Shown: piece after piece, positions 22,778 to 27,630 of the stretch | How positions within the stretch are numbered: position 1 is the first letter of the stretch | Layout: the number at the start of each line of letters is the position of its first letter | DNA from: an uncultured Dysgonomonas sp. | GTDB taxonomy: Bacteria; Bacteroidota; Bacteroidia; Bacteroidales; Dysgonomonadaceae | Reading direction: 5' to 3' | Length of the DNA: 64,000 bases | Assembly: GCF_900079725.1 (NCBI RefSeq) | Contig: NZ_LT599032.1 | Location: 2,601,518 to 2,665,517 of the forward strand | Translations under genes and position numbers: made by a program | Notes under the pieces: model-generated | Told to the model about the DNA's origin: nothing | The model's input: the letters and a program-made list of their open reading frames with translations, nothing else | The model's database searches: none

Positions 22778-22841
22778 CTCTCTCTCTCTCTCTCTCTCTC
22801 TCTCTCTCTCTCTCTCTCTCTCTCTCTCTCTCTCTCTCTCT
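22778..22841 (-). repeat. (AG)32 dinucleotide microsatellite on the minus strand
   Basis: An uninterrupted (CT)32 on the plus strand, 64 bp, reading AG in the direction of the FISUMP gene at 20530. Its upstream end abuts a promoter -7 box (TATTTTAC then TAG), so the tract would form the extreme 5' end of the mRNA. It starts 284 bp from the start codon. Confidence 0.97.
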
Positions 22842-22842
22842 A

Positions 22843-22872
22843 GTAAAATAATGCTAACTCCCAAATGTTCAG
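22843..22872 (-). promoter_or_regulatory. Promoter fused to the (AG)32 tract
   Basis: On the minus strand CTG (22872-22870), a 19-nt spacer and TATTTTAC (22850-22843), then TAGAGAG. By hand alignment 23 of 29 bases from ATTTGG through CTAGAG match the promoter at 27554-27583 without gaps. The conserved block has ATTTGG, GTTAG, TATTTT and CTAGAG in the same spacing. Confidence 0.65.
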
Positions 22873-23177
22873 GAGAAAAAGTTTGGTTGTTTGCTGCATT
22901 ATTTTGGCTGTGAAACATAATTGTTTTATTTATCTGAAAACAGATACCGTTTCTTTTATAGAATATTTTATGATAATTTATCCTTGTCTTTCTTTTATAT
23001 TGACAAAGGAAATATATACTGCTTAAAGAAATATGAATAATTGATAGGATATTTTATTAAGTTTGGATATATGAGCATGTTGAATTTAGATATGCAATAC
23101 AAATGAGACATAAGGAACAAAAAATCAAATATAATTGCATTATATGACGTTTATTTATTTTATCCGAATGTTAATTG

Positions 23178-23185
23178 TATTTTTG
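23178..23185 (+). promoter_or_regulatory. -7 promoter box of HTCS gene
   Basis: TATTTTTG, a perfect TAnnTTTG. It overlaps a possible TTG start at 23175 and so supports ATG 23214 as the start. Confidence 0.55.
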
Positions 23186-23213
23186 TAAAAAGAATATCCC
23201 TTTTTATCAATCC

Positions 23214-26200: not shown

Positions 26201-27278
26201 ACTTAGTGTCTACAATACAGGACAGGGTATAGAAGAGTCGAACATACCATCCATATTCGATCGTTACGGTGTGCTCGAGAATACCGAGGCAAACAACTCT
26301 TATCCGTTGATGACATCACGGCATGGATTGGGGTTATCCATTTGCCATGATATAGTAGAGTCTCTTGGTGGACATATTTCGGTCAGGAGTGAAGTCGGCA
26401 AATTTGCTGAATTTATCGTCGTGTTGCCCGTCCTTCAGGTAACAGCGGAAGAACGTTTGGCTGATGAAGAGAATAGTCTGCCAATGGATACCGATTCATT
26501 TAGACAATCTGCAGGAGAGAAGCAGACAATCCTGATTGTTGATGACAATAAGGATATAGTGTGGCTCATCTCGGATATTTTATCCGAAAGTTATCATATC
26601 AGAAGCGCCTATAATGTTCCCGAAGCTCTCAAAATTATAGAATCAGAGACCCCTTCCCTTATTATCACCGATATTATGATGCCGGGTATGAACGGTCTGG
26701 AGTTTATAAATAACCTCAAGAACGATAAATTTACAAAACATATACCACTTGTAATTGTATCCGCTAAAATCAGTGAGAAAGAGCAGGCAGAGGGTCTCGA
26801 TATAGGGGCCGACGCTTATCTGACGAAACCTTTTTCGTCACTTGTACTTCGTTCGGTCATAAACCGTTTATTGGTGGTGAAAGATGAGCTGAAGGACTAC
26901 TTCTATTCACCCGAGAGTGCCTATAAATATTCAGACGGGCAATTGATCCATCAGGAAGATAAAGCTTTCATGGATTCTGTTATAGATATTATATCGGATA
27001 ATATGGAAGAAGAGAACCTACGGCCCGAATTCATCGCCGAAAAGTTGAATATGAGCACTCGTAGCCTTTATCGTAAATTCAAGAAAATAACAACACTTTC
27101 CCCTAACGATTTCATTAAAGATTACAGGTTTACACAAGTTGCCAAACTGCTTATTACAACCAACCTCACCATTCAGGAAATCATGTATAAGGTAGGTATT
27201 AACAATAAGTCATACTTCTATCGCGAATTCCTGAAAAAGTACAACATGACACCTAAAGAATACCGGCTACGCAAGTAA
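23214..27278 (+). CDS. Hybrid two-component system sensor-regulator (HTCS) of the PUL
   Basis: About 1354 residues from ATG 23214 (23220 also possible). Order: N-terminal signal/anchor (YLLVVFFLTNIFLSYA), two beta-propellers of two-component-regulator repeats (MWFGTYDGLNLY, LWISTFLGLNKF, LWVGTKGDGIMR and others), a Y_Y_Y domain (about 695-795), one membrane helix (about 805-825), HisKA with FFTNVTHEFCTPLTVI, HATPase (NLVSNAFKYT, GLGLSI), a receiver (LIVDDN, IITDIMMPGMNG, LTKPF) and a C-terminal AraC-type HTH (SLYRKFKKITTLSPNDFI...MTPKEYRLRK). HTCS proteins bind a glycan fragment in the periplasm and activate the adjoining susC operon. The H-box has FC where most have LR, otherwise intact. Confidence 0.96.
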   Translation: MAMNDLLFQFNNRKNNRNFRKSYLLVVFFLTNIFLSYASYTLHRADKLDLSNNAILCMYQDKDGYMWFGTYDGLNLYNGKNTFVYRSEFDNEFSLCSNIIHNITQADEGNLWISTFLGLNKFSLKERKVIESYPELPEAKLLAADKKGNTWVISKKNYISHYNKENKNFTDIHLPGADMDNVKALFVGGDDELYMITADGKLKNIEIAGDSKNNDIRLQINESLLHDKSIINAYYEDNKIYYISAERKLYLYDLSDNKRILITDLSALIGKYGGISRVVSFKSDLFVSFNDNGLIRLDVENDYQPETVYLGIRVFCLLQDKKQDVLWIGTDGRGVQMYYQGHDLFGNIIFDNFFSGTQKPVRSIYADESQNLWVGTKGDGIMRIKNYDEHNQREVSQSQFVNYTTANGLSSNLVFCFLRSKYRNILWIGTEGPGFSYYSYKDNTVKSLSEKDGSTIGKVHSICEVNDSTLWMATAGNGLLEVIIKDENSRLSVKSVNEYILKKGDKTCVEFHSMFYDGASTLFIGSRGGYGVARYNIKSKQYDFIQMKNAENTAIGDVLCVYQSKDSTFYIGASSGMTRIQFLKDGNTVIKQFDRRNGMINDMIHGILEDADGCIWLSSNKGLIKYNPHNDFFHNYSYPDLKVTEFSDDAYWKCPQTGRLFFGGINGLTWVEPKEVNLQNNYKPDLYFFDLQIAGESRSLYDYTNKKDGYLEIGANISSFTISFVATDYINGENYEYSYLLENYNTTWTELQKTNEVTFTNLPHGEYVLKVKYKNDVLDSEEKYYSLKIRKLPPWYLTSWAYLAYVVAFVLICSYIIYLIRKRIMDKQIQIAQKINEEQKEKLLEAKLNFFTNVTHEFCTPLTVIKGVTDYIEKSAEVDKNIRKYTGILRDNVANLSGLIQEILDFRKMEEGKLDFSYVEEALVSDLVRRQMDWFIPIAEENSIMFEVSIPDDLYWNTNIFGFNRVLVNLVSNAFKYTTEKGEVKISAGIDNDQLVLSVYNTGQGIEESNIPSIFDRYGVLENTEANNSYPLMTSRHGLGLSICHDIVESLGGHISVRSEVGKFAEFIVVLPVLQVTAEERLADEENSLPMDTDSFRQSAGEKQTILIVDDNKDIVWLISDILSESYHIRSAYNVPEALKIIESETPSLIITDIMMPGMNGLEFINNLKNDKFTKHIPLVIVSAKISEKEQAEGLDIGADAYLTKPFSSLVLRSVINRLLVVKDELKDYFYSPESAYKYSDGQLIHQEDKAFMDSVIDIISDNMEEENLRPEFIAEKLNMSTRSLYRKFKKITTLSPNDFIKDYRFTQVAKLLITTNLTIQEIMYKVGINNKSYFYREFLKKYNMTPKEYRLRK

Positions 27279-27553
27279 TTAAGGGCTATTTCAGCCTCAT
27301 TATGCTTCAGTATCTTAATATACCAAATAAGTATACAGGATCGCCAATGGCCAGCTGGAATACTTATTTGGACGAATAGGATAGTCCCTTCTGTTTTTAT
27401 ATTAATTAACATTGCTGTATGATTGCTCTGACACCAATAAGTGAAAGGCAATATAGATATTGAATAAATAACATTATATGTTTTCTATAAAACAAACAGT
27501 ATATATGTTCAATGTACTACAAAATACAGGAATGATTAACTGCATTTTTTCGC

Positions 27554-27583
27554 TTGAAAATTTGGAGGTTAGTTGTATTTTGC
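27554..27583 (+). promoter_or_regulatory. Promoter fused to the (AG)23 tract
   Basis: TTG (27554-27556), a 19-nt spacer and TATTTTGC (27576-27583), then TAGAG entering the repeat. It fits the Bacteroidetes -33/-7 pattern and matches the promoter of the (AG)32 locus. Initiation about 4-8 nt after the -7 box would put +1 at the beginning of the AG tract. Confidence 0.7.
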
Positions 27584-27584
27584 T

Positions 27585-27630
27585 AGAGAGAGAGAGAGAG
27601 AGAGAGAGAGAGAGAGAGAGAGAGAGAGAG
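27585..27630 (+). repeat. (AG)23 dinucleotide microsatellite ahead of susC
   Basis: 46 bp uninterrupted, followed by ACATAATTTAATAAAAAATAG, an A-rich exit similar to that of the first tract (ACTAAATAAAAT). It lies 332 bp upstream of the susC ATG, on the sense strand. Confidence 0.97.

Follow-up and report, generated by a model that had tools for sequence, protein, structure and literature searches.

Three AG tracts and the genes behind them

The window analyzed here is a 64,000-nucleotide (64-kb) stretch of the genome of an uncultured Dysgonomonas sp. (contig NZ_LT599032.1, positions 2,601,518 to 2,665,517), and our subject is a set of long (AG)n tracts that lie ahead of surface-protein genes in this window and elsewhere in the genus. 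A search for dinucleotide runs of at least six units in the window returned three only: (AG) at 1–49, (CT) at 22778–22841, and (AG) at 27585–27631. This search bore out an earlier note on the same DNA, which had claimed three long AG tracts, all in sense orientation and 284–462 nucleotides (nt) before two genes for QVTIG-type secreted proteins and a SusC gene. Tract 1 has at least 24.5 units, tract 2 has 32 units on the minus strand, and tract 3 has 23.5 units, while the distances from tract to gene are 462 nt (49 to 511), 284 nt (22778 to 22494), and 332 nt (27631 to 27963), respectively. Beyond the earlier note, we find that the tract lies inside an open reading frame (ORF) and that the system recurs across the genus. 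In the reading that we develop below, this ORF is a leader, and the number of AG units would set the frame in which ribosomes leave the tract; we call exit frames that stop soon after the tract OFF, and those that run on to a terminator or to the gene start ON.

At tract 3, the leader ORF as assembled occupies 27505–27636 of the plus strand, with its ATG at 27505 (or 27478), and contains a conserved 38-nt core (27547–27584) that directly abuts the tract (27585–27631, plus strand). Behind the tract lies an intrinsic terminator (27721–27766, plus strand), consisting of a hairpin at 27721–27761 and then a T tract, with a folding energy of -19.4 kcal/mol for a 60-nt stretch and a z score of -4.3. 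The assembled frame stops at 27636, only 5 nt past the tract, and the second frame stops at 27641, but the third frame (27632–27757, plus strand) stays open as far as the 3′ arm of the hairpin, where it stops at 27757. In the leader-switch reading, tract 3 as assembled is in the OFF phase, and the third frame, which is reachable by a change in tract length, is the ON phase. The target gene (27963–31178, plus strand) encodes a SusC-type TonB-dependent receptor of 1,071 amino acids with Plug and TonB barrel domains. A relative of this locus, L278 in genome G019, has stops at +5, +126, and +13, as compared with +5, +126, and +10 in the window, and tract 3 with its 23.5 units and L278 with 8.5 units share both the +126 ON stop and the position of the hairpin, 89–130.

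At tract 2, leader ORF 2 (22373–22918, minus strand; 181 amino acids as assembled) starts at an ATG at 22918, passes through the 38-nt core (22842–22879, minus strand) and through (AG)32 (22778–22841, minus strand) as poly(Glu-Arg), and stops at 22373. The target gene (20530–22494, minus strand) encodes a 654-amino-acid QVTIG-head protein with a Fib_succ_major (FISUMP) domain (PF09603, E 1.4e-17). Since the leader overruns the gene start at 22494 by 122 nt and the other two frames stop 5 and 16 nt past the tract, tract 2 would be ON as assembled in the leader-switch reading. The best hairpin between leader and gene reaches only -9.5 kcal/mol, which is below our terminator criterion.

Tract 1 (1–49, plus strand) is the 3′ part of a longer tract that contains 1,039 nt of N immediately left of the window. 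The head of the tract, with the leader ATG and conserved core, is present left of the window, beyond this N run inside the tract. One frame from the tract (2–514, plus strand) is open to the gene start and would be the ON frame; its TGA overlaps the next ATG as ATGA. The gene behind it (511–1983, plus strand) encodes a QVTIG-head secreted protein of 490 amino acids without a Pfam match.

The tracts in the source genome and in the genus

We searched the source genome, a single contig of 5.22 Mb, by anchored searches for AG runs, which miss runs that start right after an N. Of 19 runs with at least 6 AG units, 17 have at least 19 units, and all 17 are preceded by the conserved head, although in locus L067 by only the head's 3′ part, with more AG before it. 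Neither of the two 6-unit runs in this genome has the head before it, and the long tracts are therefore not there by chance. For the locus count, two runs beside one N stretch were merged, as they are probably one locus, and a head with a 5.5-unit tract (3787675) was added, giving 17 loci. By our inspection of the annotations, QVTIG-type genes come first behind eight of these loci and SusC-like genes behind six (Pfam was run singly on two of the six); at the remaining three there is a LamG-domain protein gene followed by a SusC-like gene, an ECF sigma/FecR/SusC-like operon, and a gene for a Y_Y_Y/LuxR-type regulator. Read as leader switches, seven of the 17 would be ON and seven OFF, one has a nonsense codon at the tract entrance, and two are undecidable; the hairpins at 4110709, 4249265, and 3622121 were judged by eye, and each fails the T-run criterion.

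(AG)10 occurs in 17 of 41 genomes sampled, and all 17 are among the 25 Dysgonomonas genomes in the sample; it was absent from one genome each of 16 other genera. The head pattern was likewise found in 17 of the 25 Dysgonomonas genomes, and across the order it was found in 3 of 393 genomes, all of them Dysgonomonas (4 sampled), that is, in 1 of 206 genera. In the GTDB species collection, the head pattern turned up in 94 stretches; the 80 that were listed come from Dysgonomonas, Dysgonomonadaceae metagenome-assembled genomes (MAGs), a single "Bacteroidia bacterium" record, and entries labelled Prevotella or Tannerella. The core was seen only in Dysgonomonas and in MAGs of similar label, so far as these collections go, and the putative switch system is apparently genus-specific. 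The early sets (head alignment, first frame test, stop distances, and first polymorphism ratios) drew on 80 of these 94 stretches and the final set on all 94. There were 128 unique core loci, one of which was dropped for AG runs in its flank, and 99 of the remaining 127 have 500 nt free of N downstream. Tests involving genes used the 96 loci with a gene call, or 34 QVTIG and 60 other loci with the gene at least 150 nt away. Removal of near-duplicates, which left 95 loci, did not change the outcome. Terminators and gene starts were called with our own scripts, and tract lengths were taken from assemblies, many of them MAGs, in which short-read lengths may be wrong; the layout of stops past the tract does not depend on tract length.

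The earlier note had proposed counting AG tracts in this genome and its relatives and testing whether they cluster, in sense, before surface genes. The count is 17 loci in the source genome and 127 in the genus, and a same-strand gene is called downstream of the tract in 96 of 99 loci. Among the 96 first genes, 46 have a TonB Plug domain (Pfam counts are from the first 350 residues at most, pooled over the 96 proteins) and 34 are QVTIG-type by motif, so the proposed link to surface genes holds in the main, with a few first genes of other kinds. Tract lengths differ between related loci and reach a maximum of 156 units, with some above 100, and several related pairs of loci keep their stop layout while the flanking DNA has diverged.

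When AG tracts in the genus were collected without regard to the head, 84 of 116 places matched the strict head, with coordinates compared by eye. The other 32, also judged by eye, comprise 20 with a clear head, 3 of a divergent type, 3 with a weak head, 2 with none, 2 undecidable because of N or a contig edge, and 2 second pieces of interrupted tracts. Conversely, at five places chosen by eye where the core occurs without a tract, three have short or decayed AG runs and two look like chance matches.

The leader frame and the conserved core

When 96 heads were aligned on the tract start, an ATG was found most often at -80, with A-rich positions upstream of it and a conserved core of about 40 nt ending at the tract. 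In 95 heads, the nearest in-frame ATG beyond -40 lies at -80 or -77 in 52, elsewhere in 38, and is missing in 5. The head frame is open for at least 20 codons in 122 of 124 loci of the final set; in the first set this was so in 95 of 95, as compared with 2 and 51 of 95 for the other two frames. Read in this frame, the tract encodes poly(Glu-Arg). Each tract is thus part of a short leader ORF, and the tracts resemble neither promoter spacers nor untranslated DNA.

The core also contributes stop codons to the other two frames: of 126 loci, 124 have one at -1, 99 at -30, and 109 at -15. Both other frames are closed before the tract in 123 of 126 loci, as opposed to 40% in shuffles, and in 36 of 38 loci that were fetched without the head pattern. 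Because the core closes both other frames, the leader's own frame alone enters the tract, and we refer to this as the frame gate. A head conserved as a peptide was rejected: the ratio of nonsynonymous to synonymous polymorphism (pN/pS) was 0.95 in the first set, largely collected by means of a pattern in which some third positions are fixed, and 0.85 in 39 heads fetched by the tract alone, with no peptide-type selection in either. RNAalifold on 124 rows found no RNA structure of the head.

Past the tract, the nearest stop lies within 7 nt in 61% of 71 loci, as compared with 30% in shuffles and 23% from shifted starts. The longest frame reaches at least 200 nt in 39% of these loci, as compared with 5% in shuffles; shifted starts in the same leaders reach 33% because the same open frame is read.

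Frame-specific stops at terminators

We called a terminator when a hairpin of -12 kcal/mol or better, with a T run, lay within 260 nt past the tract. By this criterion, an intrinsic terminator is present in 58 of 99 loci, as opposed to 13 of 495 shuffles. In every one of the 58, the hairpin is reached by one frame (31 loci) or two (27 loci) but never by none or all three. Spacer shuffles predict 26.9 such loci of 58, with a maximum of 41 in 20,000 simulations (log10 P about -24), and swapping terminators between loci gave a mean of 46.6 of 58 and a maximum of 55. The putative ON stops also lie inside the hairpin or U tract in 44 cases, as compared with a permuted mean of 25.7 and a maximum of 41 in 5000.

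Frames that run to the gene start

A terminator lies between leader and gene in 10 of 33 QVTIG loci, where a slightly narrower motif gave 33 loci instead of 34. Among the 34 QVTIG loci, 25 have one frame, and only one, that remains open to 60 nt or less from the gene start (3.1 expected); the count for the 60 other loci is 9 (2.6 expected). In 20 of 96 loci, the stop of a frame lies no more than 25 nt from the gene start (permuted mean 7.7, maximum 19), and an exact ATGA or TAATG overlap with the called gene start is found in 6 of 96 (permuted mean 0.4, maximum 4). Window tract 1 has such an overlap too, ATGA, between frame 2–514 and gene start 511. By eye, and without a family search, the translated stretch between tract and gene looks unlike any protein; judged from its sequence, this ORF seems to be kept open only for the passage of ribosomes. 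A leader fused in frame to the gene was considered for three related QVTIG loci (L222, tract 2, and 3022735) and rejected, since such a frame exists only in L222.

Position of the promoter motif

We took TANNTTTG to be the promoter motif. Before the leader ATG, it has 37 hits in 8,645 nt (8.3 in shuffles) and occurs in 36 of 91 loci; between tract and gene, it has 7 hits in 28,811 nt (20 in shuffles) and occurs in 7 of 91 loci. Given enrichment before the leader and depletion between tract and gene, we rejected the idea that the tract is a promoter spacer.

A putative leader-ORF switch

What can be seen directly in the DNA is the leader ORF with its frame, the gate, the terminators, and the stops specific to each frame. 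From these features, we consider it quite likely that the loci form a family of phase-variable leader-ORF switches in the genus Dysgonomonas. A promoter upstream of the leader would give a transcript that begins with a short ORF, and ribosomes would start at the leader ATG, cross the frame-closing core, and read (AG)n out as poly(Glu-Arg). Whenever a slipped-strand event added or removed a 2-nt unit, they would leave the tract in a different frame. In OFF frames, ribosomes would meet a stop soon past the tract. In ON frames at mostly SusC loci (one or two of the three frames), they would enter the terminator hairpin and hold it open, and RNA polymerase would then read into the gene. At mostly QVTIG loci, the single ON frame of the three would carry ribosomes across an otherwise meaningless ORF to or over the gene start codon, where their arrival would allow the gene to be translated by coupling or would protect it from polarity. 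Transcription from upstream, slippage in vivo, the blocking of terminators by ribosomes, coupling, and the resulting ON/OFF expression are what we infer from the layout. We also lean slightly toward a broader proposal, that these loci make up a phase-variation network across the genus, in which a single frame-gated (AG)n cassette has two outputs, antitermination at SusC loci and delivery of ribosomes to QVTIG gene starts; the latter output would be a phase-variation mechanism not met in the literature that we searched.

Several observations weigh against this model. The core is not conserved as a peptide, with pN/pS at 0.85 in the leader frame versus 0.47 and 0.53 in the other frames, and all of its codon positions are equally conserved; it therefore acts at the nucleotide level, for which frame closing accounts only in part and not in the AT-rich parts TTTTTC, AAAATTTGG, and TATTTT. 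No terminator is called in 41 of 99 loci, and since 22 of 99 antisense stretches also score as terminators, a part of the hairpins could have other functions. Of the 58 terminator loci, 39 are assembled in a phase that reaches the hairpin, as compared with 28.3 expected (standard deviation 3.6); selection could account for this excess, as could assembly bias or an imperfect model. In 9 of 34 QVTIG loci, the gene is reached by no frame. The exact TANNTTTG lies upstream in only 36 of 91 loci, and together with a TTG at -33 in only 12 of 94, and there was none in the stretches inspected before the leader ATGs of tracts 2 and 3. Some first genes do not encode surface proteins, with single matches to PEP mutase, cytidylyltransferase, AlbA-type, and methyltransferase families, and these may be wrong gene calls or real exceptions. 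Finally, leader L234 (5027270 in the source genome), ahead of a QVTIG protein gene, carries a TGA at the tract entrance and would therefore be locked in the short state.

The earlier note had read the tracts as phase-variable repeats in a leader or promoter-proximal position. Repeats apparently built for slippage-type switching and tied mainly to surface genes agree with the phase-variation part of that claim, but the promoter-proximal option does not stand, as the tract lies in a leader ORF and its exit frame seems to matter, judging by the stop layout and the position of the motif. Tract length could in principle tune the geometry of a promoter or regulator site with the ORF incidental, and tracts a few hundred nt before genes and a core conserved at the nucleotide rather than the peptide level are what this would lead one to expect; against it stand the excess of the promoter motif before the leader ATG and its shortage between tract and gene, the leader frame open in 122 of 124 loci, and a frame-specific stop layout that would have no role, and we regard it as very unlikely. 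Another possibility is that the poly(Glu-Arg) peptide itself acts, by nascent-chain stalling or as a small protein in trans, and that length and not frame matters. Copies do encode (Glu-Arg)n behind a similar head, with up to 156 units, but the head is not peptide-conserved, and a mechanism that depends on length alone needs none of the arrangement of stops against terminator or gene start that we find far beyond chance, which makes this explanation highly improbable.

Slippage need not be confined to the DNA, as long dinucleotide runs could presumably also slip during transcription or translation, and tracts above 100 units exist. RNA polymerase or ribosome slippage on (AG)n would then give a fixed blend of frames in each cell, as a leaky governor. 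The frame gate and the early OFF stops suggest instead that frame matters, and related loci differ in tract length; we consider programmed mixing of this kind unlikely as the main explanation, though some slippage could act alongside a genetic switch. Nor is it at all probable that head and tract are a spreading repeat element whose place ahead of surface genes is incidental: there are many copies per genome with a shared core, as such an element would have, but several related pairs keep their stop layout despite diverged flanks, and among the first genes there is a strong preference for SusC and QVTIG proteins.

Comparison with known switches

Simple repeats in coding regions underlie phase variation in Neisseria and Haemophilus, where repeat slippage shifts the reading frame of surface genes. 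Those contingency repeats lie in the surface gene itself, whereas the Dysgonomonas repeat is in a separate upstream ORF that has a start of its own, with the window's genes 284–462 nt past the tracts; the exception is L222, where the leader frame runs in frame into the gene, as in coding-region repeats. In Bacteroides, which belongs to the same order, surface loci have invertible promoters and switch stochastically by recombinase-driven DNA inversion. The putative Dysgonomonas switch shares stochastic surface-gene switching with these, but would work by a repeat tract in a leader ORF rather than by inversion. In Helicobacter pylori, a sialic-acid-binding adhesin is controlled by a repetitive DNA element with slipped-strand variation, described as rheostat-like (PMC4081817). 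A repeat controlling a surface adhesin is common to both, whereas the Dysgonomonas layout is frame-specific and lies in a leader ORF.

The closest parallel is the pil1 operon of Streptococcus gallolyticus (Danne et al. 2014, PMC3894217), in which the frame of a leader ORF is shifted by GCAGA repeats within it and the longer leaders extend to the vicinity of a terminator, into it, or beyond it; the same is reported for pil3. With such longer leaders, expression of pil1 was shown to increase in a manner that depends on translation. Both systems have a short tandem repeat in a leader ORF, with a unit that is not a multiple of 3, and in both the frame sets whether the leader stops well before a terminator of a surface operon or close to, within, or after it. 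In pil1 and pil3, two out-of-frame phases give long leaders, which may be compared with the layouts in Dysgonomonas in which two of three frames would be ON. The differences are that the unit is AG and not GCAGA, that the genus belongs to the Bacteroidota, that there are 17 loci in a genome versus two pilus operons, that a 38-nt frame-closing core is shared, and that the targets are SusC, FISUMP, and other QVTIG proteins. Dysgonomonas would also have a second output, at loci most of which lack a called terminator, where one frame extends up to the gene start. With an AG repeat and a leader unrelated in sequence, the putative switch would work like that of pil1, with no sign in the sequences of shared descent.

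We found no such switch in the literature on Dysgonomonas or other Bacteroidota, judged from listings and the starts of abstracts of open-licence papers, two of the listings covering 15 of 1,088 and 12 of 2,451 papers, which is weak evidence. The earlier note had not recognized such a system from the literature; this agrees with our search as far as Bacteroidota are concerned, but the principle is in print for streptococci (PMC3894217). If the leader-switch reading is true, Dysgonomonas, a gut genus of the Bacteroidota, turns many of its nutrient receptors and surface proteins on and off independently of one another through the frame of leader ORFs, by a principle that we otherwise found shown only for two streptococcal pilus operons. 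Leader translation would then control transcription termination in Dysgonomonas, ON and OFF would be predictable from tract length, and the phase of every locus could be scored from long reads.

Other features of the loci

The longest tracts in the source genome are those of L222 (1369424), with 156 units, and L233 (3622121), with 115 units. The L233 tract precedes an ECF sigma/FecR operon and then a long SusC-like ORF, and therefore a switch there could act on the regulator. At L224 (2350704), head, tract, and terminator precede a gene for a 944-amino-acid Y_Y_Y/LuxR-type regulator and not a surface receptor. N runs of 1,039 and 945 nt lie inside two tracts, L225 (2600429) and L226 (3022735–3023995), and contigs of several relatives end within a tract, a pattern in keeping with AG runs that defeat assemblers when they are long or mixed in length. 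Outside the core model, a divergent head type (FNILxLFL...NxLER or similar) precedes AG tracts at L276, L289, and L293 and may represent a second subfamily. In the window, the SusC gene of tract 3 is followed by a SusD gene (31213–32853), and the surrounding 23175–36731 is a polysaccharide-type locus with a hybrid two-component regulator, SusC/D, a BSP-type peptidase, and a GH92 glycosidase.

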